Positions 95-47,089 of a stretch of DNA of 64,000 nt are shown here, piece by piece (the first letter of the stretch is position 1; each line of letters opens with the position of its first letter). The stretch spans positions 22,961,873 through 23,025,872 of the forward strand of contig OZ020248.1 of the NCBI GenBank assembly GCA_963971285.1, written 5' to 3'. The translations under genes and the position numbers were made by a program. The notes beneath the pieces are model-generated. The model saw nothing but the letters and a program-made list of their open reading frames with translations, made no database searches and was not told the origin of the DNA. This DNA comes from Astropecten irregularis (lineage: Eukaryota; Echinodermata; Asteroidea; Paxillosida; Astropectinidae).

Positions 95-3000
95 CATTTC
101 CAGGAACATGGCCAGCTTGGAGATAGGCATCGTCGTGTACAGCTTCAAGAAACTGGCAGAAACCAAACCAAACAAACAAGAGCAGATTATATGTAGGCAC
201 AGAAAGACAACAATTAAAGGTGTCCACTTTCCGCATATTAAAGGAAGACCTGGAATAGCCCGCGGCACAATTGCAGAATTCCCTGCCACTCACCTTGCCC
301 ACCCCGTAGCCGCGGATCCGCGGATATGGAGTCACGCTTCAGTGAATGTGCTTTGTACACAGTGTGTGCAGTTCACTTTGTCTCTCCGCGTATCCACATA
401 TCCACATTCTTCCAACCTTCCCCATTCAATTTGCATTGCTGCACAAGACACAAGGCCTGTAACAGCTTCACTTCGTATCCACGTATCCGCGTATCCACTT
501 CCCAGGACCCACATTGGATTTTTTCCAACCTTCCCCATTTATTTAGCGTGGTTCACATAGGGATGCTTCGTTCTCTAATAAGCTGTACACAACACTGGGC
601 CTAGCCAGATTGCACTGCAAGTTAGAATTCTCCCCCGCCATTCGTGATCCGCTCGACCTCGTATCCATTGAATTTTAGGGGACATTAACAATACAATGCC
701 CATAATATGTTTACAAAACTTTACACACACAAACAAAACTGGAACAGCGAAGCTGTCATGGCTCGCTGCAGCCTTACGTGCAGTTACAAACATGATAACA
801 AATTTTAAAAAAAGAAAAAAAGAAAAAAAAAACTACAAAATTTTCTATTGTCTGTCCAGATTAAAATAATTAATTTTAAGAGTATAAACTCTAATTTGAG
901 GTTGTAGAGATGAATTTTATCACGTTCCCAAAAATAAGCACTGAAGAACTTCAACTTTTCATCTGATTAAAAAAAAAAAAAAAAACATTTCACAAAAATG
1001 ATAGCAAATTTAAAAAAAAGGAAAAAAAAGAAAAAAAAAACCACAAAATGTTCTATTGTCTGTCTGGATTAAAATAATTAATTTTAAGAGTATAAACTCT
1101 AATTTGAGGTTGTAGAGATGAATTTTATTACGTTCCGAAAAATAAGCACTGAACAACTTCAACTTTTCATCTGATTAAAAAAAAATTAACATTTCACAAA
1201 AATGATAGCAAATTAAAAAAAAAGAAAAAAAAGGAAAAAAAATATATAATTTTCTATTGTCTGTCTGGATTAAAATAATTAATTTTAAGAGTATAAACTC
1301 TAAATTTGAGGTTGTAGAGATGAATTTTATTACGTTCCGAAAAATAAGCACTGAACAACTTCAACTTTTCATCTGATTAAAAAAAAATAATTAAAATTTC
1401 ACGCCGGTCACAAGCTTATTAACAGTAAATGCCAATTGAGAATCTGTAATTCAACTGGTACCCTGCCGTCACACGTGAATTACCTGCGGATGGTTGGTAT
1501 GGCCAACTGCTGCTGGATTTCCTCCCTGAAGACCTTCATCTGCAGAGAGAAGGGCTCACGGTGGAAGTTGCCCTGGGGCTGGTCGTAGTTGGGCGGCACC
1601 GGGGACAGGAAACGAGGGCAGGAGAAGCTGAACGCATCTTCAAAGGCTTGCATCTCCCTGTATCCCACCCCAAAAAAGAAAAAAATCGGTTCAGTGGTTG
1701 AGCTTCTTAACCCCTTCAGCCGGGGTTTTTGCTGGTAAAGACTTCATTATCAGTCAGTCACCGGTCAAATAGAGGTCCCTTGGCCCGACTACGTATTTAG
1801 GGAGCTCAACGTTAACAATGCTGTCACACAGTGGTTGAATACCGCTGCACAACACCCCGAATTCCAGGCGGACTGTACTCTAAGTATTCAGCTGTGTTCA
1901 GAACTGACAGATTGCATTCAAAAATGCCGATCTTTTATATAATGCTATCCTCTTGTTCCAGACAGTCCCCCAAGGCTTGAATTTAACGGAGGTCACGGAG
2001 GCCATGACCTTCGTTGCCCTGGTTCTTGGCCTTCGTGTCCCCTTCAAATGTTTCCATCTGATTTTCCAATGGAAGTGCCCCTTGCAATGGAAAAGTGGCC
2101 TTGCCTCTTTCAGAACCAAATTCAAGGCCTGGTACCCCCATTCAATGTAATAACAAAGCAATCATGGATATTATCACGCCATGAGACAAACTGCTATAAG
2201 ATGCTTCCCGGGCGGAAGGGGTTAACAACAGACTCTCAAAGTCATCAAATTCGCTTCGACTTGAGCCATGCATTGTAAATGAAACATAACTGTGAGGGAG
2301 TAAGTGAAAATGTATTATGTCCAAAGGTGGTGCTGGTGATTTCAAGTGACTCAGATGTCCGATTGAACTTAAATTTTCACAGGTTTATCATTTCATTGAC
2401 ATGTTTGATCGTACAAAGTGTGAGTGCTCTTCTGTGACATTTGCAAATCATCCATTTGGATGGAGTGAATATTAGCAAGCAGCTTCTGTCTTACCCTCGC
2501 TGCATTTTGGCCAGCTTGTCGCCCATCTTGTCTTTGAGCTGCATGTGGACGCTCTCGTCGATGCGCATGGGGTGGAGGGTCAGAGCGATGCCCAGCAGGG
2601 TGTAGATTTGCTCATTGATCTTTTTGATCTGTCACAGCGAAAGGAGGACAAAACAGCAAGTCAGATAGGTGAACTACGGGGGTTTACAAAACGGAGGCTC
2701 AGGCTCCTTGGAAAGTATACAGCCCTGGCTGCAGTAAGGTGCACAAAGGCTAATCAAGCACACAAAACCATCTCTACCCTCACAGGTACCCATTTACACC
2801 TGGGTGAAGAGGAGCAATATGTGACAAAGCGTCTTGCCCAAGGATGCAAGCACCACAAGCCCATGGCTGGATTCTAACACCCACAATCTGTAGATTAGGA
2901 CAGGCCAGACCACTTGGTCACAGCACCTCACTGTGGTCTACTATGCCTCCAAATACCGTGACCTCACTTACCAGATCCACCTGGTAGGAGCCGGCCGGCA

Positions 3001-6000
3001 TCATGCGACTGGTGCGCTGGATGTACAGCAGGATGTTAGTGAAGCTACGTATGGCATCCTGGTAGCGTCTCATCATAAGATAGGCAAAGCCCACGTAGTA
3101 GTACGTGGACACCTGACAGGCCGTCACCCTGGAGTACAGAGTCTAAGAGAGAGGGTAAGGAGGAGAGGGAATAAGACTCCGTCATCAAGATGCAGCAAAG
3201 CACAAAACATCAAGTCCTCAATATTTTCACAAAGGGACGATTTTGCCCACAGGGCGTTGAAACATAGGGCATTTACGAAATGGAGGCTTAGGCTCCAGCT
3301 CTGTCATCCATATGCTGAAAATATAGAATGTGGTTTTTCATTGAAGCTGAAACTCTGTTTTCCTTTTCAAACCAGAGAATCTACTTCAGAACCGCAGCCA
3401 AAAGCCTCTATTTTGATACCCGTTATTTCAGAATGGATTCACGAAATGGAGCCGAAGCCTGAGACGGCGCCTGAGCCTCCGTTTTGTAAACGCCCATAGT
3501 TTTGAGAAAGTCAGCTTTGAAGTTTGTTCCTTTTTCAATTTCGCCCACTTTTGGAGGACATAATGATTAATTTTTTTTACCGGTTTCAAGCTGAATGCTT
3601 TCACTTTTGTCTTTAATACAAGATGTACTAATTAAGAGTTGATAACTTGATATATTATTTGATTGCGGAGTAATTAACGTTCAAAGATATTCGCCCCTTC
3701 GTGAAAACTGAGAAATCCACGAGCTATTTCTTTTTAATACCGGACAATTGGCAAAGACAGTAATTGTTCTCCTCTTGTTGTTGCCATTTCTGCTATTGTT
3801 GTTGTCGTTAGCATAGTAGTTGTTATTGTCATTGTCATCTTTTGTTATTGTTGTCATCAGTGTTTTGTTTTGTTTTTGTCGTTGTTAACTTCATCGTTGA
3901 TGTAGTTGCTGTTGTCATTGTTGCTGTTGTTGTTATCATTGTTGTTGTTGTTGCTGCTATTGTTGTCGTTGTTTTTGTAAATTGTTGTTGAAATCATTGT
4001 TGTTGTGGTTGATGTTGTTGCTGCTGCTATTGTTGCTGCTATTGTTGTCGTTGTTTTTGTAAATTGTTGTTGAAATCATTGTTGTTGTGGTTGATGTTGT
4101 TGCTGCTGCTATTTTTGCTGCTATTGTTGTCGTTGTTGTTGTTTTTGTAAATTGTTGTTGAAATCATTGTTGTTGTGTTTGATGTTGTTGTTGTGATCAT
4201 TGTTGTTGCTGCTGCTATTGTTGTTGTTGTGGTTGTTGTTGCAGTTGTTGTTGTTGTTGCAGCTGCTGTTGCTGTTGCTGCTATTGTTGCTGCTATTGTT
4301 TGTTTTTGTAAATTGTTGTTGTGGTCATTGTTGTTGCTGCTGCTATTGTTGTTGTTGTGGTTGTTGTTGCAGTTGTTGTTGCAGCTGCTGTTGCTGTTGT
4401 TGCTGTTATTGTATTCCTACCTGCTTGTTGAGCTCAATATTTTCCAGGACTTTGATGGCCTGGTAGTAGTCACCCAGGAGCGAGTGGAGGCGCAGCAGGC
4501 CAATCAGACTGAAGTAGCCCAGCATCTTGTACAGAGGGTGTCGGCCAAAGTCCCCTGCTACACTATCCGGTTCCCCTGCAACAACCAAGAACCCAACACC
4601 ATAATACAGCAGCCAAGCAGGAATATGCTTTTGCTATTGCAAAGTTCGATCCTAGAGCAATATTTGTCAATTGTACAAGATTCAAAGCCCTCTGGGTAAA
4701 ATTGTTGCTACGGCTGGCACAAAGTGATGTACAATGTATACATTTTAAACATACTACGAATGGACATAAATTTCAACTAAGAATAAGTACCCAATTTCAC
4801 ATTGCTGGAACAAGTGACTCGACAGTGACATTCCATGGGCTGCAGCCGTGTCATGTATAAACAAACTCGAAAGAAAGGATATCTTCCAGAAATAAATACA
4901 ACTTTAAATTTCGCGGGCCGGCAACAGTACACATATATGCGTGTCAATAATGAAGATCATTGTTTGTTTACCACAACATGACCCACTGTGCTTTGCATGC
5001 GCATGCGTAGTGCCGAAAATAAGGTCCACCTTCGTCACTTTGTATACAATACTGCCCTCTATAGAGGTGGAAATTCAGAGAAACAAAGCAGATGGAAGGA
5101 TAAGCTTGGCATGTTATACAAAAACTTACCGGCACTGGCGTACACCTCCAGTTGTTTGTTGATGTTGGACTTATCCACGAGGGAATGCAGTACGTTCAGC
5201 ACGCTGTGCACATTCCAAATCTGAGAAGGACAAAATCAGAAGCCACAACGTTTTTGAGAACGACGGCTCATTCGACTTTTTTCATTCGTCTCGCGGACGA
5301 GACGAATGAAAAAAGCAATTGTTAGGCTTATGAGGGCGCTCTTTGAACAAATGCTGATCCTCTTAACACTGCAAGAGAGAGAAACTTTAATGCTGGTTGG
5401 GCCAAGCCATTGAAAAGCTAGGCCAAGCCTGGACCAATTTGCCTGGGGTCTTGGGCTTCTATAATGGACCATATTCACTGTGCATCCATTCTACATTCGA
5501 AGCAGTGTAATCAATCCAAGGCTTGGAAAGTAGTCTGGTACCCGTTTTCTTTTAAGAATTCGTGTTATCCTTTCTAACGGGTATACAAGGAAGGTGACAA
5601 GATGGATGCGCCATGAATAAGGCTTCAAGCCCCTGCTTTGTCCTGGATCATAAGTTGGCACTATAAACATGATAGAAAGGTCTAGTCAACACTGATCATG
5701 GACAGTATTTGGAAGCCGGGTTTTATTGAGTTTATTGAGCTTTTTTTTTCTGTAGTAAAGTTAGGTTCACGCTTGACAAGAGAAGGATTTCAAGCCCGAA
5801 GGCCCAAGCTTTTCGATAGCTGGGCCAGTATTAAAGTTTCTCTCCCTAACGGAAACATTATTATTTGACCTGGGATTTTGCAAACTTCATAGCCAAACAG
5901 CCTTGCTGCCTCTGTGAAATCACAGCCCCGCAGGCAACAATGGGAATCTTAGCTTAGCACAAAAATTTGCTAACCATGAAATTTCTGTCTGAATAAAAAC

Positions 6001-12000: not shown

Positions 12001-15000
12001 GACATTTCAAAGATGCTGGGAACGCATATCTGGTGCCTTGTGGAGATTGAGGACAATAGGTTGAAAATGGGCCTTTAAGAAATGGAGGCTCAGGCTCAGG
12101 CTCTGGCTCTGGCTCTGTCATCCACATGCTGAAAATATAGGTTTTTCATTGAAGCTGAAGCTCTTCATTCTTTTTCAAACTAGAGAATCTACTTCCGAAC
12201 CGCAGCCAAAAGTCTCTATTTTGATACCCGTCATTTTAGAATGGATTCACAAAATGGTGCCGGAGTCGCCTCCGTTTCGGAAAGGCCCTATGTCTCCACA
12301 GGGAAATAGTAATGGTGCATAGGTCTCCACAAGGTTTTCACGAAACTGATATTAGGGAATAAACTCAAAAAAGAGGAATTTCCAAGGTATACTTATCCGT
12401 CGCAGAGAGAAGGAGTTGTTTTTCAACCCAGAAAGTGATTCTGGTTCAAATGGGAGCGATTTCAATTCTGCTCTTCGGAGAGCGTCCGTTGAGTACACAA
12501 GAACAAAGCCATGTCTACAGATTGAGGTATGCGTGATGTGAGAAAGACAGCGTGTCTACTTACCCAGTCCCACAGCAGCCTGGATACTGTCGGCATCGGG
12601 CCACGAGTTATTCTTGAAGAATCTCTCCGTCAGCACGTTGAAACTAAGGAAAATAGGGAAGGGCAAAGAATAGAAAAGAAACGAAATGAGACAAGTGTCC
12701 GCATACATGTCAACAGAAAGTTTTCAACATGAGAACAGCCTTAACAGAAGTAAAAGCTATGCACAGCATAAAGGCTGGTTCATAGACTCCGCGTTTAGGC
12801 ATACCCAGAACACAATGCAAATGTCACATTCAATGTTCATACTCTGCCATCTTTCTAGTCTAGGGCTGTAAGTTTACAAATAATTTTGTAACCGGTTACC
12901 CGTCTTTGGGTCTTGGGTCTTTTAGGAACTTGGTTGACAACATTCTTTTGTCACAACATTTGGCAGTGGTAGACATAGCAAAATGTCTGGCCTTTGCTTT
13001 GCATAAGCCTGCTGGTTAAATTTGCAAAAGATCATTGACATTTTTTTCTTTGTGAACTCTAGAAGTGTCTATGTTTAAAAAAGAAGAGGCCATTAAAAAG
13101 ATACTTTTCGATTAACCTAACTGGGAAAATGTACCCGGGTACCCTTTTGAACAGTCGGTTTTAACCGGTTAACTGGATACAAACTGCAGCCTTATTCTAG
13201 TCTACGCATCTGGCAATATTTTAACTTGTCCGAATACAGGTCAAATAGGTGCGTATGAACTTTGTGCAGCGAATATGCAGCGAGTATGAATCGGCCTTCA
13301 GGCTGTACATCAATCAATCAATCAGTGGGAGCATGCACCGCGGCAGCGTGTTGCCGCATCTACCTTCAAGCAGTACTCCTTCGGTCTTCTGATGGCCATC
13401 CCCCAGGCAGCCACGCGACCCATCCCCATCTCAGCAAAATAACAATCCATCTGACGCAACCACGTGTCATGTGGATGCCCTACCGGGTGAGTCCTACCAG
13501 TAGGTTCTCTCATAGAGAGAATTCACCTGGCAGGATCGCTCGCAGGGAATCTAGACACATGACCGTACAGTCGCATCTGATGCTCATGTATCATGCAGGT
13601 AATAGGTCTCATCTGACTCTCCCTGAGTATTACTATTAGACACATTGTTTGTCCGACCAGCAGTACCCAAGGATCCTCCTCAGAGACCCAGTCCTGAAGA
13701 CATTGAGTCGTCTCCCCAGGCCCCCAGTCAAGGTCCATGCATTTAAATAATGCCCTTGAGATAACACTTGACTGTCAGTCATGGAATAGGACGTGAGCCT
13801 TACTCTCGCTCGTAGCACAGGCTGATGTCCCTCAGCTTGTTCTCCTTGACGTTGCGCTGGAAGAACACCAAGAAGTTCTTGATCTCGTCGGGCAGGATGT
13901 AGGAGTTGACCGGATTGGGCTGCTGACGCTCATAGGCCAAGTCCCGCTGTGGGTCACCTATTCAATCGATAAAACATATTTTAATGACAAGAAGAAATGC
14001 TATGGGACAGAAACTTAAATACTGGTTTGGCAAAGCCACTGAAAAGCCAGGCCAGGTCTATAAACTGTTTAACATGGAGAAATCCAAAGTTTGAAAAAAA
14101 AACACACACTTTGACGTGATGAAAAAAAGACAACTCGACTCAAACTCGACTCGAGACAAATCAAGTCTCTGCCAATGCGATGTGCGGTGCGGTACGGTGT
14201 GCACGACATAGCAATGTCGCGCACTTGGAATCGAGTTATCTTTGCGGTCGACCTGTGTCGAGTCGAGTTGTCTTTGCGGTTGACCTGTCTCGAGTCGAGT
14301 TGTCTTTGCGGACGACCTGTCTCGAGTCGAGTTGTCTTTGCGGTCGACCTGTCTCGAGTCGAGTTGTCTTTGCGGTCGACCTGTCTCGAGGCGAATTGTC
14401 TTTGCGGACGACCTGTCTCGAGTCGAGTTGTCTTTGCAGTCGAGCTGTCTCGAGTCGAGTTGTCTTTGCGGTCGACTTGTCCGGTGCCCGTAAAGTGAAG
14501 ACAATGTCCAACGTGGACTAGGGGTTTGACTTACCTGTGTGATATCCGTAACTGTCCCCTTGGTACTCTTCATACTTGATTCCATGGAAGGAAACAAAAA
14601 AACACAGTTGTCAATGGAGAAAATGATTCCATAAAATCATCAAAGAGCATGGCAGAGACTGTACTGAGAGTCTCGAATTTGCCTGTCGCAAACAAAGTTA
14701 ATGACAGTTTCTATTAACCCTCACCCACTTACCACACAAGACAAGAGCTGCTTACCATACACTACAACAGTCTCCGCATGGAATGGATGGGAGCTGGATC
14801 ATAAATTCACGCATGACCATGAAAACCACATTGGTGTAGGCCTATTGTGGTATTCAGGATACCATACTTACCTCAGAAAAAAAAAAGGCATTTCGTGTAT
14901 ATGAGCCATTCTGTCTATTTCTGTTTAGTCTGGTACCCGGCCATGGATGGAGAGTCGTATTTTTATTTTAGGAACTTTACTGTAGAACTAGAAGATGGGT

Positions 15001-27689: not shown

Positions 27690-39792
<12,103 letters not shown>

Positions 39793-42591
39793 GTTTCTAG
39801 TTGTAAAATCACGCAAAACAACGACAATTTCTAGTCAACTTCACCGCTTGAATTGAATAAAGTGGTTTATGTAAACATGTATGATAACTTGTGTAAGACG
39901 TGAGCGTGTGTACAGTACAGTACAGCCGCAAACCGGTTTAAAGTGAAACAGCGCCCTCTATATTGATTAAACAAAGTGAAACTAGCCTTAGACCATTATA
40001 GAGCTATTAAAAGGTAATAATAATATTATACTTTGCTTTTTAAAAAAGAAATACAGATTCATTTCATGGGCAAAAATATCAAGACAGATACAGAAACAGT
40101 CATCAATTTCAGTCCCATACGGCGCCCACTTTTGAGAAAACAGTGAAAAACAGCCACAGCATTTCTTAAGTCTTTTCTGTTTTATTTTTGATCTTTTAAT
40201 TAACGATCAAAAAGATTTTCGGTCATTGGTTTACTAATTTCTGGATAAATACACCATTTCAGTGGGAACATTTTAACGGTATGTTGCATCTTCAATTCTT
40301 CATACCCTGTATGTTATAAGTAAATCTGTGAACATTTCTATTTTGGTTTCTTAGTGATTTTAATAATTATAGCTTCATGCCTTAGCTTAGACCCATTTTT
40401 TTTGGGGGGGGGATTGGAATAAACTGTTTTATTTATTCAAATCATTTTTATTTATCCCACCCCCACCCCCAAAAAAAAAAATCATGCTCGATGACCACGG
40501 TTCAAGCATTATTATTTTTACTAGGTGTCAAACGGCCAGGGAGGCGGCTCGATCTACTCAGTGCCCCAGTGCTCTCTAGATCTTGAGCTGCCAAAATCAT
40601 TTCAATGTAAAAGCAAGGGAATTATCCTCATGGTTACCTAAAAAGTACAATACACACTGGCAAAAGAACAGCATAAAACGACGTCACATTCATTAGCCAA
40701 TCAGATTAGGGAAAGTTAAAAAGTGTATTGTACCAAACACTGTAATGGCCAATCACGTTTATTCCAATTTCTAGGCTCTACAAACTCCAGCGGGGTTGGA
40801 ATGTTTCTGGATTAATCAGGAAGGTTAAAGGCATTGCATACGTTTGGTAATGACAATTTATGGCAATAAAAACTTACTTGGTGAGAAGTACAGCTGCTTT
40901 GGATAGTGTGTTCCTTCCTCCATGGTATAATGCATATTGAGAAACGTTCAATTCGAAGTACCGCGGTTATGGAAAAATGTGTCACTTTTTATCTCCAAAA
41001 ATTAATATGAATCTGAGAAGCGTTATGGCCGTAACGCTTATCAGCTATTGACTATAACTGTTCTCTGGCGTGAAATAACCGCTCTAGTTTGTCGCCAAAA
41101 TCTCAAAAACGCTACCACCTTTTGAATTGAAACTTTCACAGGTTAGTTTTATGGTATATATATACAATTATATTGGTTTGAAACAAACAGTAGGCTAAAA
41201 TTACCAAACGTATGCAATCCCTTTAAACTTTCTGTTGCACTTTGATTCATCCTTATGTCCCTATATAATTACACATGAGAAAGATTTTGGTTTGTTAACA
41301 ATGTTGTCTGGTCCATACTCTTTAACTAATGACTTCAATAAAGTAAGAACCGAAAGCAGGTGGTCGTGGGTTCGAATCCCTCTTTAGTAGTGGCGTAAGT
41401 ATAATGGGCGTGGGCAACGGGGGCACGTGCCCAAAAAGGTACCTGACTGTAAGTGAAGTTATTTAAAGTCTAATCAAAATGAACAAACAGAACAAAAAAA
41501 TTCAAATTTCAAGTAATAAATTGTCTCATTTTTCTCCGTCGGCAAAAAAAGCCGACGGCCCTCTGCACCCCAAACCTGCCCCGCCCCTACCCCCCACCTC
41601 CAAAAAAAAAACTCTTCAAAAAATGTGACTTTAAATAGCGCCCTCAACATTTCACGTGCATCTCACGCAGGAAGGGGAACTGGACGTCTCGTCTGCATAA
41701 CAAACACTTTTGAATAGGAAAAGCGTGACCGCTTGAAGGTGGAACCAGACTGTCCAATAGAAACAAGAAACACAAGTTATGAAACAGACTGATTAAGAAA
41801 TAAAAGGACAGTGAATAAATCAGGTAAATACATTTTTTTTTCTGATTGTTAAAACTGTTTCAAGCACGATCTTCTATTTCAATTGAAGACTTTCTTCACC
41901 TTTTTTTATTATGACATTACAGGAAAACGGCAGTCATCTTTGTGGCTAAACATTTGCTGCCCGTAAACGGTAAAGACATTAGAAATTTTAACGTTAGGCT
42001 TCGGCTCTGTTTTAATAATGTTACAAAGGGGATTGTAGCTTTACGGGTCCTAAAACTATAAAGGAAAGGAAACTTCTTTTTGAAAAGTAACTTACCTACA
42101 TAAACTTTGTTGGTCTTCTCCTCTATATTACCAAGGTTAATTTTTTGGAAAGAGGGCAGGGCTTTGATTTTTGAGGGAAATTATGGGGTAAAAACGGTAA
42201 CCAAGATTGTAACATTTCACCGCTGCACGGACGGCCGCACACGAGAATAGTCTGGTTTCCATTCTGACATTTTGAGGACTCTTGATATGGTGGGTCTGGG
42301 CACTAGACTAACCAGACCAGACAAAATGGCCTCACGCGATCAGACGGCCTGCAAAGTTTACAAGAAGCGCGTAAGAAAATTGAATTTTAACCCTGAAATG
42401 TTTAACAAATTTCTTCAATCTAGGCTTTTAAGGACCCAGGAACATTTGCTGGAAGTCAAAAGTATCATTTTTGAGGAGTAGAAGTTAGTTCAGAGCCAAA
42501 AAAATCAATGTGTTTTTAGGATCCCGTCAACCCACAATCGCCGTTACAAAACTGGCTGTTGTATGTTATGTCATTGTCAATGCAGTAAATG

Positions 42592-43596
42592 GGTGCCAGT
42601 CAACTCGGTCCGTAACCAACTCGGTCCGAGTCAACTCGGTCCGTGACCAACTCGGTCTGAGACCAACTCGGTCCGAAGCCAACTCGGTCCGTGACCAACT
42701 CGGTCCGTGGCCAACTCGGTCCGAGGCCAACTCGGTCCGTGACCAACTCGGTCCGTAACCAACTCGGTCCGTGACCAACTCGGTCCCTATGGGAAAACGT
42801 ACACAAACAAGAATCCATGCAGTTTGCAGCATGCAGCAGCAGTGTACAACATGTAGGCTACTTGCATTAATGTTTTTTAATGTCATCATAACATAATATG
42901 TTTTGCTTGTGGCTGAAACCGTGAAGAAATAAATTATGTTGATACCATAATTATTAGATAAAATGGCACAATACAATTTTAATTAAAATATTAATTAAAT
43001 TATACACGAAGTCAAATGCCTTATGAAAACGTGCTTTTTATGTTTAAAATTAATAAATCAATTAATGAATAATAATGATGATTGTTTTGTGTTTTTGTTT
43101 TTGATTTTTTAGCTTTGTTTTAATTAATCTGTGTATTTAACATATAACATAATTTTATATAAGATTTATAATTGGCAGGTGTTTGGGAAGGCACTTCTTT
43201 TGAAGACAGGTTTTTTTTTTTTTTTTTTTTTTTTTTAACTTTTTGTCAGGCCCATGGACCAATGTATTTTTCATTCTTTTAATGTTTTTAAGATAATAAA
43301 TGAATAAATAAATAAATAGACCTAAATAAATAGTTAAATTCACGCAATTTGCGAGACTAAGTACTCGTTTTGCTGCAACAAAATTACCAGACGTTTTTGC
43401 GTGCATTTTCCCATAGGGACCGAGTTGGTCACGGACCGAGTTGGTTACGGACCGAGTTGGCCTCGGACCGAGTTGGATACGGACCGAGTTGGGCATGGAC
43501 CGAGTTAGTTACGGACCGAGTTGGTCACGGACCGAGTTGACTCGGACCGAGTTGGTTACGGACCGAGTTGGTTACGGACCGAGTTGACCTGAAACC
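42592..43596. mobile_element. Foldback-type transposon with minisatellite arms
   Basis: A 1005-bp element whose arms are opposite-orientation arrays of one ~16-bp unit: GACCAACTCGGTCCGT at 42600-42788, its complement ACGGACCGAGTTGGTC at 43418-43586. Inner edges carry matching CCCTATGGGAAAA / TTTTCCCATAGGG. CAGTAAATG(G) flanks both sides (42583-42591; 43597-43605), a 9-10 bp target duplication. The ~600-bp middle is AT-rich with a poly-T tract and has no long frame. Confidence 0.88.
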
Positions 43597-43649
43597 CAGT
43601 AAATGGCTGCACAGTGCATTAATGTATTATAAAGACTATGACGCTTAAG

Positions 43650-44061: not shown

Positions 44062-47000
44062 ATGATACAGATGGCGGGTCTACTAGGACGGAGCGTCACC
44101 TTAACTGGCCATCTGAATGCTCTCCAAAGATGTCTTGTTAAGAGGACCTGGCATAGCTTAGCACACAGCAGGAAAGGCACCAGTCTACGACAGACCTGTT
44201 TACTCGGTGTTGCAAAACAAGGAAACGCAGAGAGAACTAACGTGCAAAGTATTAAAATCCGTCCACTCTTCAGTCGCACGTCAAATGTGCATCCTGGACT
44301 CGGCCAATGGACTGGTCGGTATTATCACACATCGGGAAATTTGATCAGCAGAACGTTTTGTATGCACGGTGCGGCAAGGCAAAGGCGAGACTCCTCTGGA
44401 ACAAGAAGAGCCATTAATGGCACAATATTACTGGGGTGCCGTTGGATTTCCAGCAGTCAGAGGCAGGCGTGGCAGCATCGGAATAAGTCTGTGATGCTGT
44501 ATGGGGTGGCGCTGGTCATTTTGGTCATCGGATTCTCGTATGCAGCCGTGCCTCTCTATGCCGTCTTCTGTCAGGTAAAATTCTCTCCCCCCTCCCCCGA
44601 ATGATTAGCCAATCAAATTGAAGAGACAATTTTGAATAACCTGTATTGGTTATTTTGATTGGTTCATGCAGATCCATATTCTGTCAACTTCAGATCATCA
44701 TGTTAACCCTAACCCACCTGCATACCACAGTATGGTATCCTGAATACCACAATACACCACAGTGTGGTTTTCATGGTAATGTGTGGGACAAATACAAAGG
44801 TATAACAAAGACGTACTTGCCATTTTAATATACACCATTGTATCTGGCCCAGTAAGATGGCCTCAGTCGATACAAAAGCGTTGCAAGTCAAGGGACCAAT
44901 TTCATGAAAAGTCTTCCTTGATCAGACAGGATTACATGTACCAACCAAATTTTCATGTGGTGTTTATTGCTTTTGACTCGTATTCGGCCATTGTTTGCTG
45001 AGCATAACATTCACAAGGAGTTTTGACTGGCATACTGATTTTATTGACCAAGGATTTTGGTGCTTTAAAAGCAAATTTTGGTGCTTAAATAAGCAGCTCT
45101 ATGAAATTGGCCCCTGATTGTTTCAAATTCATACAACATCCGTGATTTGTCTATGTCTCTATGGTGTGCGTCAGGATCGGAGTTCAGATATTTCTCTACC
45201 ATTTTTACCCTCAAAAGGCAACTGGGTTAGGAGGCCAGGCAACCAAGGGTCACAACGTTGAACAGGTCGAGGACATGGTCCCAGTACGCGGTCGGACTAT
45301 CTCAATCCGCTTCAACGCCGACACGGCCGCCAGCATGAGATGGAACTTCAGACCCCAACAGCTTGAAATCAAGGTGAACACAATCATCGCAGAGACATTC
45401 TGATTTTGGAAAATTAGAAGTTGACGCTTAAGATTGAAAATCAATTAGATGCATTAAAATTGTCTCCCAAAGTTCAAATTGGAAAATGAACAAAGAAAAA
45501 ATTGACTGGAGTGGGATTTGAACCTGCGACCCCTGGAATACCGTATTCCATTCTGAGGGTCGCAGGTTCGAATCCCACTCCAGTCCATTTGGGTACCTGT
45601 GAGGGAAGAGATGGCTTTGTGTTTGGTTAAGAGCCTTTGTGCGCTGAATACGGCAGCCAGGGCTGTATACTCCCTAGGGAGTTGAGAATGTTTTAGGAAT
45701 CATGTTAATGGGCCCGATGACCAGGGATAACATTACAGATGTCATACGTTGATTGTGATATGCGCTATGTAAAAGCATTTCATTTAAAAAATTAACAATA
45801 CAAGCAATAAACTGCCACAAACTGCTCATCAGCCAAAATAATGACCTGAAATAAAACAAAATGCTTGGAGTTTATAGGAGGGCCTGATGCTTTTCAATCC
45901 TAGCAGGATTTTAATCGATTATCATATAGTCATCAATTAAGGTCCTGCTAGGATTGAAACGTGTCAGACCCTCCTAACACCAAGCAGTTATCATTAACTT
46001 CACCATAGGTTGCACCTGGTGAAACAGCCCTAGCCTTCTACTCGGCCGTCAACCCCACAGATAAGCCCATCATCGGCATCTCAACCTACAACGTGGTGCC
46101 CTTCGAGGCCGGCCAGTACTTCAACAAGATTCAATGCTTCTGCTTCGAAGAACAGAGGTTGAATCCTCACGAGCAGGTACGATATTATTAAAGGGGATCG
46201 CAAAATGGCTCCACAATTCCCGATTCCCAGTTCTACTCACATGGTGTGGACACATACCCAAATATGCATCCTAGTGGAGACATTGCTTTGTTTTCGTGAA
46301 CTGCAAACGCTCTCCGCATAGCAGGGGCCTTTCTCAAAGCTTGGATCCGGCCGAAAAAGGCTCCGGCTCAGGCTCCATTTCGTGAATCCATTCTAAAATT
46401 ATGGGTATCAAAATAGAGACTTTTGGCTGCGGTTCAGAAGTAGGTTCTCTGGTTTGAAAAGGAAAACAGAGCTTTAACAGCTTCAGTGAAAAACCACAAC
46501 CTATATATTTTCAGCATATGGATTACACAGATAAGTGGGAGCCTGATCCCGAGCCAAGCTTTGAGAAAGGCCCCAGAATTGAAATTGCTCCCATTTGAAC
46601 CAGAACCCGAGTTTTATTCTCAACATGGTCAAGCGGTGTTTATATTTTCATTGTAATCCTGACTCTTGATGCCCTGGCTGAGAGGAAATGTACATTTTTG
46701 GTCTTTTGCAATTTATTAGCCAAAGTCCAACGGAGAGAGGTGCTTTCGGTGGTTGAGAGTGTGCAACGCTTTACGTTTGGGCGATAGTGACGTGTGCGTG
46801 TGGGTTGTTGCTTGGACGTTGCTATGGTGGGCGTGGCCTACTGGATCAGTGTAGTGTCCTCGGAGCAAAATACCACCACGCAAAATATAATCAGAAATTG
46901 ACAGTACAGAGTGGTTTCTTCCAATTGCAGGTTGACATGCCCGTGTTTTTCTACATCGATCCCGAGTTCGCCGAAGACCCCAAGATGTCCAAAGTAGACA

Positions 47001-47089
47001 TGATCACACTGTCCTACACGTTCTTTGAAGCCAAGGAAGGGCTCGTCCTGCCAGACCCCTTCACAAGACCGGCCGAGGTCCAAGCCTGA
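44062..47089 (+). CDS. COX11: Cytochrome c oxidase copper chaperone COX11 (complete)
   Basis: COX11 is an inner-membrane protein that delivers copper to the CuB site of COX1. Exons: 44062-44574, 45218-45373, 46009-46176, 46931-47089; all introns are phase 0; 331 aa plus TGA. Exon 1 encodes a long basic N-terminus, then a transmembrane helix (about residues 144-166) running into SYAAVPLYAVFCQ with Cys170. Exons 2-4 encode the intermembrane-space copper domain: MVPVRGRTISIRFNAD, WNFRPQQLEI, ETALAFYSAVNPTDKPIIGI, the copper-binding CFCF motif (Cys266, Cys268) in KIQCFCFEEQRLNPHE, and VDMPVFFYIDPEFAEDP. I chose the ATG at 44062; the in-frame ATG at 44071 is an alternative, and an AG just before 44062 means a 5' UTR intron is possible. 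The protein is longer than human COX11 (276 aa), all of it N-terminal to the membrane helix. Confidence 0.96.
44890..45115. mobile_element. MITE with GGGACCAATTTCATGAA termini
   Basis: GGGACCAATTTCATG at the left pairs with ATGAAATTGGCCCCTG at the right. In COX11 intron 1. Similar ends appear near 18265, 32975 and 50480. Confidence 0.6.
45487..45592. repeat. Head-to-head SINE A palindrome
   Basis: Two tRNA-like B-box ends face each other: GACTGGAGTGGGATTTGAAC.. and ..GGTTCGAATCCCACTCCAGT. They give ~32-bp arms around a short loop. In COX11 intron 2. Confidence 0.75.
46324..46574. mobile_element. MITE with GGGCCTTTCTC termini
   Basis: Same family as 3267-3495. GGGCCTTTCTCAAAGC and GCTTTGAGAAAGGCCC are inverted ends with CAG on both sides. 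In COX11 intron 3. Confidence 0.75.

Follow-up and report, generated by a model that had tools for sequence, protein, structure and literature searches.

A high-copy foldback transposon family in Astropecten irregularis with arms of a repeated 12-bp word, probably non-autonomous and probably Mutator-like

The window analysed here is a stretch of 64,000 nucleotides from the genome of Astropecten irregularis, in which a foldback element lies between two genes. On its left side, the minus strand has two exons with an ETF domain (PF01012), one at 35702-35878 that scores 28.2 bits against a cut-off of 26.7 and one at 37634-37849 that stays just below it with 26.4 bits, and on its right side a COX11 domain (PF04442) lies on the plus strand at 46757-47086. 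With one ETF-domain exon above the Pfam cut-off, one just below it and the COX11 domain, the position between ETFA and COX11 given by a first-pass annotation, which had been made from the letters of the window, is supported. Upstream of the COX11 domain there is a reading frame with an ATG at 44062, 457 bases beyond the right target-site duplication, and this frame has no Pfam match of its own. Another dispersed repeat, at about 42015-42548, ends a short way to the left of the element; it is 94-97% alike at five other loci (L017, L043, L060, L061 and L067) and 84% alike at L056. The parts of the element, together with a solo arm of a sister family, are collected in Table 1.

Table 1. Parts of the foldback element and a neighbouring solo arm, in window coordinates
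Feature	Position	Strand	Basis
8-bp target-site duplication CAGTAAAT, left copy	42583..42590	.	sequence and aligned copies
10-bp left tip GGGTGCCAGT	42591..42600	+	identical in 40/40 aligned copies
Left arm, 12 copies of CAACTCGGTCCG with 3-4-bp spacers	42601..42786	+	TRF and monomer reading
AT-rich core, no recognisable coding	42787..43416	+	28% GC in family consensus
Right arm, 11 copies of the CAACTCGGTCCG unit, inverted	43417..43586	-	TRF and monomer reading
10-bp right tip, GGTTTCAGGT read inwards	43587..43596	-	aligned copies
8-bp target-site duplication CAGTAAAT, right copy	43597..43604	.	sequence and aligned copies
Decayed solo arm of the sister (second) family, unit GGGGCGAGTTGGTCAG, tip inwards GGTAACAGGTCAACTCG	39366..39609	-	TRF and end likeness

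The two opposed arrays of a unit of about 16 bp, on which the element had originally been recognised, are present (11.7 copies in the left array and 10.7 in the right one, according to TRF), and their matched inner edges (CCCTATGGGAAAA and TTTTCCCATAGGG) are real. Over 157 nt the two arms show 90% complementarity, and for one strand of the element a single long hairpin is the predicted fold. With at most two mismatches allowed, an 11-base piece of the unit has 35 matches in the window, compared with 9.7 ± 2.95 in shuffled sequence, and none of 100 shuffles reached that number. The unit is better described as a 12-mer followed by a spacer of 3-4 bp. Read from the tip inwards, each arm consists of a 10-bp tip (GGGTGCCAGT on the left, GGTTTCAGGT on the right), a row of CAACTCGGTCCG copies with their spacers, and CCCTATGGGAAA at the inner edge.

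A search of the genome (475.7 Mb in 168 contigs) with the element gave 384 first-look candidates, the best 40 of which, once scored, comprise the window copy and 39 others at 91-98%; these 39 were fetched with their flanks for alignment. All 40 aligned copies start with GGGTGCCAGTCAACTCGG, and 39 of them end in GAAACC, the exception being L013; the longer end GAGTTGACCTGAAACC is exact in 38, with one mismatch in L032 and three in L013. Because the aligned copies have common starts and ends, the element can be placed at 42591-43596 (1006 bp) and its duplication fixed at 8 bp. Of the span first given to it, 42592-43596, the right edge therefore stands and the left one is replaced by 42591. The duplications of 9-10 bp that had been proposed are likewise revised: the 8-bp duplication is perfect in 38 of the 50 copies for which both ends were placed, has one mismatch in three and is absent from nine, and the surplus G or GG of the window copy is accounted for by the 5' GGG of the element itself together with a GG that stands by chance in the 3' flank. 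The 50 copies are the 40 closest ones (31 perfect, two with one mismatch, seven without duplication) and those 10 of 20 further loci in which both ends are exact, the other 10 being without an exact 5' end. Exchange of flanks among the nine copies without duplication was considered and set aside, as the three near-matches all involve L044 and are not convincing. In copy L040, seven extra bases of tip-like sequence (GGGTAAC) stand between the 8-bp duplication and the left tip. Inspected by eye, the 33 target duplications of the 40 closest copies show no base preference. The target of one of these copies (L039) is a palindrome of about 30 bp around CATGGAGGTAGAAATATTTCTACCTCCATG, and a similar sequence is inserted in the left arm of L059.

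The family is large. Patterns for its two ends, with at most two mismatches, are found 295 times (5' ends) and 386 times (3' ends) genome-wide, and not once in reversed-pattern controls. When 100 of the 295 5' ends were paired with 96 of the 100 3' ends listed, 85 of the former had a downstream 3' end on the same strand within 15 kb, and 68 of these 85 pairs span 900-1100 bp (median 1009). Copy L045 is inserted within a repeat, and its flanks, joined after removal of one duplication, align across the junction both to window positions 419-667 (80.5%, with a 2-base gap beside the junction) and to L056:3995-4234 (76%, with no gap at the junction); both alignments are gapped elsewhere, and neither place holds an element. 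By these alignments, paralogous empty sites exist. With hundreds of ends genome-wide, target duplications and empty sites, the initial view of a mobile foldback element is supported, and other inverted array pairs were found in the genome, so that the window's pair is not a solitary one. Both marks of the foldback type are present, namely long inverted ends made of tandem repeats, and dispersed copies with target-site duplications. Viral contigs contain no match to two adjacent units.

The cores of the 40 closest copies differ from their consensus by about 2% on average. The core of the window copy has a poly-T run at 43211-43236, and among the 40 copies the longest T run varies in length between 6 and 34. 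Two stop-to-stop frames of at least 110 codons (138 and 117 codons) exist in the window copy, both running through arm sequence; neither has a Pfam match above the cut-off, and there is one match below it (E = 0.045). Since the window copy has no recognisable coding sequence, it is most likely moved by an enzyme encoded elsewhere. The search for an autonomous partner covered the seven paired elements of greatest length (>1.7 kb) and the surroundings of 3' ends at 13 places (11 with no 5' end listed and two lying past the last 5' end listed), and no transposase with arms of the window's family was recognisable in the copies read. The candidates L048, L049, L051-L054 and L060 turned out to be family copies split by insertions. 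Locus L050 (3430 bp) has the family ends, 8-bp duplications and short arms, of about eight monomers each by reading and six exact ones per arm. Its interior is scattered with TAATTCCGTTACCG, and a Pfam search with six of its 17 frames of at least 60 codons gave no match. A site about 140 kb away with a smaller element (L069) shares the 34-bp left flank of L050 and is 94% alike over 602 bp; from this likeness the two sites seem to be duplicates of each other, and both are among the 12 places found with a pattern for family copies that have a different interior. The MULE domain (PF10551) has 33 matches genome-wide, and none of the 13 that lie on stretches with fully listed exact ends is less than 145 kb from a family end. 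One locus (L068) encodes a protein with FLYWCH and MULE domains, and no inverted arrays or arms are found there.

Several known systems come close to the family. The Drosophila foldback element FB has long repeat-containing inverted ends and a non-coding middle, with other repeat lengths and 9-bp duplications, and in the TU elements of sea urchins, whose likeness is one of description, the inverted ends are long, the tandem units short and the duplications 8 bp in size. Tetris, also a Drosophila foldback, has the same kind of ends and a non-coding middle, and differs in its repeat lengths and its duplications of 8-10 bp (PMC4079207). In the case of Tm1, a Mutator/foldback element of root-knot nematodes, the published account (PMC3169594) describes repeat arms that are preceded by short tip motifs, different at the two ends, and a MITE-like nature, as in the window's family, but duplications of 8-10 bp, mostly 9, and a known copy with a Phantom-type transposase. 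Muta1 of Aedes aegypti is an active Mutator-like element with over 300 non-autonomous derivatives, the ends of which are made of a 10-bp tip and nine copies of a 12-bp repeat with 3-4-bp spacers, flanked by duplications of 8 or 9 bp (PMC5225508). The window's family is like Muta1 in its 10-bp tip, its rows of a 12-bp repeat, its 3-4-bp spacers and its 8-bp duplications, as well as in its hundreds of derivatives and its little or no target preference. It differs from Muta1, as described there, in having 12 and 11 repeats rather than nine, duplications of 8 bp only rather than 8 or 9 bp, and non-palindromic instead of imperfectly palindromic tips; and whereas Muta1 encodes a transposase of 504 amino acids (PMC5225508), no coding copy of the window's family was found. 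Each tip of the window's family agrees with its reverse complement at 2 of 10 positions; an imperfectly palindromic 10-bp tip is a feature of Muta1, not one shown to define all MULEs. As regards the other features of MULEs of the Muta1/Phantom type, duplications of 8-9 bp and subterminal tandem repeats (9-15 bp) set apart by short spacers, the family has duplications of 8 bp where present, and the 12-mer with its 3-4-bp spacers. The MULE relationship first suggested for the element is thus plausible from its architecture and duplication length, the arm layout matching that of Muta1 and resembling that of Tm1, and it is unproven because no transposase with the family's arms was found.

We consider it likely, with a probability of roughly 0.7, that the family consists of non-autonomous, MITE-like foldback transposons that move by cut and paste, with a transposase supplied in trans that is most likely Mutator-like (of the Phantom/Muta1 type) and with the 12-mers as its putative binding sites. 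A transposase encoded elsewhere would act on the element in trans, the 10-bp tips marking the sites of cleavage, while the rows of CAACTCGGTCCG would provide multiple binding sites, recruiting the enzyme and pairing both ends; insertion would follow through an 8-bp staggered cut, at sites without evident sequence preference. The 12-mers are read as docking sites for a Mutator-like enzyme because of the layout of Muta1 and Tm1 and because Galileo, an element of the P superfamily, has binding sites for the THAP domain identified in its arm repeats (PMC3688188). Galileo resembles the window's family in its long repetitive arms with repeated transposase-binding sites, and differs in its THAP/P transposase and in the three widely spaced sites reported per arm; in 2013 its authors described tandem repeats as transposase-binding sites as untested for Foldback and Phantom elements (PMC3688188).

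The same foldback element might instead be served by another transposase that leaves 8-bp duplications, whether of the P/Galileo type with a THAP domain, hAT or Merlin, its repetitive arms having evolved independently, as in Galileo. We regard this as unlikely. The duplications, where present, are indeed 8 bp, but the combination of 10-bp tip, 12-mer and 3-4-bp spacer is that of Muta1 in detail, and the tips of the window's family begin with GG, a start from which hAT and P tips differ. What Galileo brings to this alternative is a precedent for long repetitive arms, each with several binding sites, that are usable by a P-type transposase (PMC3688188).

The arms themselves had been expected to be prone to length change. 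This expectation is not borne out by the 40 closest copies, the best of the 384 candidates, in which the left arm has 12 monomers in all 40 and the right arm 11 in 38, with 10 in L033 and nine in L046; these copies are the best matches to the window copy and hence biased towards similarity. The order of the spacers is also nearly the same across them, so that the spacers act as a bar code for the monomers. Several arms among the more diverged loci have lost monomers or are interrupted, and in the window copy itself the right arm, compared with the family, has one extra outer TAAC monomer and has lost one inner monomer. Array change does occur, but as an exception in the closest copies. At the far end of the range, a collapsed copy of 53 bp (L061:8022-8074) retains both tips, and between them a left monomer fused to a right one and a single further right monomer, with a duplication matching at 7 of 8 positions, and looks like the product of a deletion between the arms.

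Within the consensus, the string CAACTCGGTCC, by which the monomers were located, is exact in all 23 of them (12 left, 11 right), and no monomer was missed, because the stretches between matches are only 3-4 nt long. A 4-nt spacer follows 19 of the consensus monomers, and when these are compared, differences affect 0.9% of positions in the 12-mer and 29% in the spacer, a contrast reached in 145 of 20,000 column-shuffling trials; the last spacer base, C, is constant too. Slippage alone would leave the spacers as uniform as the word, so their variation points to the word as a functional unit, and the uniform 12-mer with its varying spacers suggests putative transposase-binding sites. A signal of selection was also sought in the sharing of variants between copies. 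In a set of 35 rows, from which five of the 40 with rearranged or interrupted right arms were left out (the window copy, L026, L033, L039 and L046), shared variants are rarer in the 12-mer (7 of 273 positions) than in the core (58 of 610), and the comparison of shared with private variants gives P = 0.03. This was not reproduced in a set of 52 rows, with arms that had gaps or more than nine mismatches dropped (7 of 52 on each side), where P = 0.59, and selection on the 12-mer is not claimed from variant sharing.

It could be argued that the arrays are a by-product of hairpin or slippage expansion in a long inverted repeat, and that the tips alone suffice for movement. The variant-sharing result in the larger set leans this way, as do the long hairpin predicted for one strand and the junction of the 53-bp copy, which falls inside the arms. 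However, slippage of this kind does not fit with spacers that differ where the 12-mer does not, nor with the stable number and order of monomers in the closest copies, and a sister family nested in one copy has the same layout built of a different word; we find this explanation rather doubtful. That the arms are ordinary minisatellites which arose or were inverted at this place, with no mobile element involved, would agree with each array being on its own a TRF minisatellite, but is already refuted by the dispersed copies, with their hundreds of ends, 8-bp duplications and empty sites.

The nested sister is an element of 879 bp at L051:1217-2095 with 10-bp tips, 11 units of CGACTCGCCCC per arm (at most two mismatches) and 8-bp duplications, CCTACATG. 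When the flanks are joined across it, they agree with the consensus core of the first family at all 48 bases of the comparison, which makes this an exactly known empty site. The tip pattern GGNNNCAGGTCAACTCG is common to the right end of the first family and the left ends of the second. An end at L059:8305 resembles the second family, as does the end of the solo arm at the left of the window's element, for which no partner array on the left turned up in a short regular-expression scan from 35000 to 39700. A third type of inverted pair, of which one example was seen (L059, about 4257-4925), has seven and eight units of CAACTCGTACCC (at most three mismatches) with AAGT spacers, and its inner edge, CCCTATG, is that of the window's family; no clear duplication was read around it. 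The words of the three types have a near-constant half, CAACTCG or CGACTCG, and a half particular to each family: GTCCG in the window's, CCCC in the second and TACCC in the third. These likenesses make it conceivable, as a tentative proposal that we would not yet favour, that the genome holds a clan of foldback families with one layout, a short tip and 7-12 copies of a word of about 12 bp, in which the word would be a recognition code tying each family to its own transposase and the arms would be copied whole rather than expanding and shrinking as minisatellites do.

From a more general point of view, the family offers a clean natural data set on arm repeats as putative transposase-binding sites: a single genome supplies hundreds of ends, the copies are closely similar, the spacers number the monomers, one copy is collapsed to 53 bp, and the words of the sister families differ. 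It illustrates that repeat-built arms can stay stable over many copies, contrary to the minisatellite reading, and its main interest lies in these stable, bar-coded arms and in the sister families whose words are altered. In other respects the family is MITE-like and of known type, a good representative of a class of mobile elements already described. Two further tandem arrays were noted. One, with a 19-bp unit, CATTGCGTCAACTCGCAAA, that contains CAACTCG, lies at L048:1877-2184 with no inverted partner array listed; the other, at window positions 14231-14481, consists of 7.8 copies of a 32-bp unit, TCGAGTTGTCTTTGCGGTCGACCTGTCTCGAG, which itself has inverted ends.
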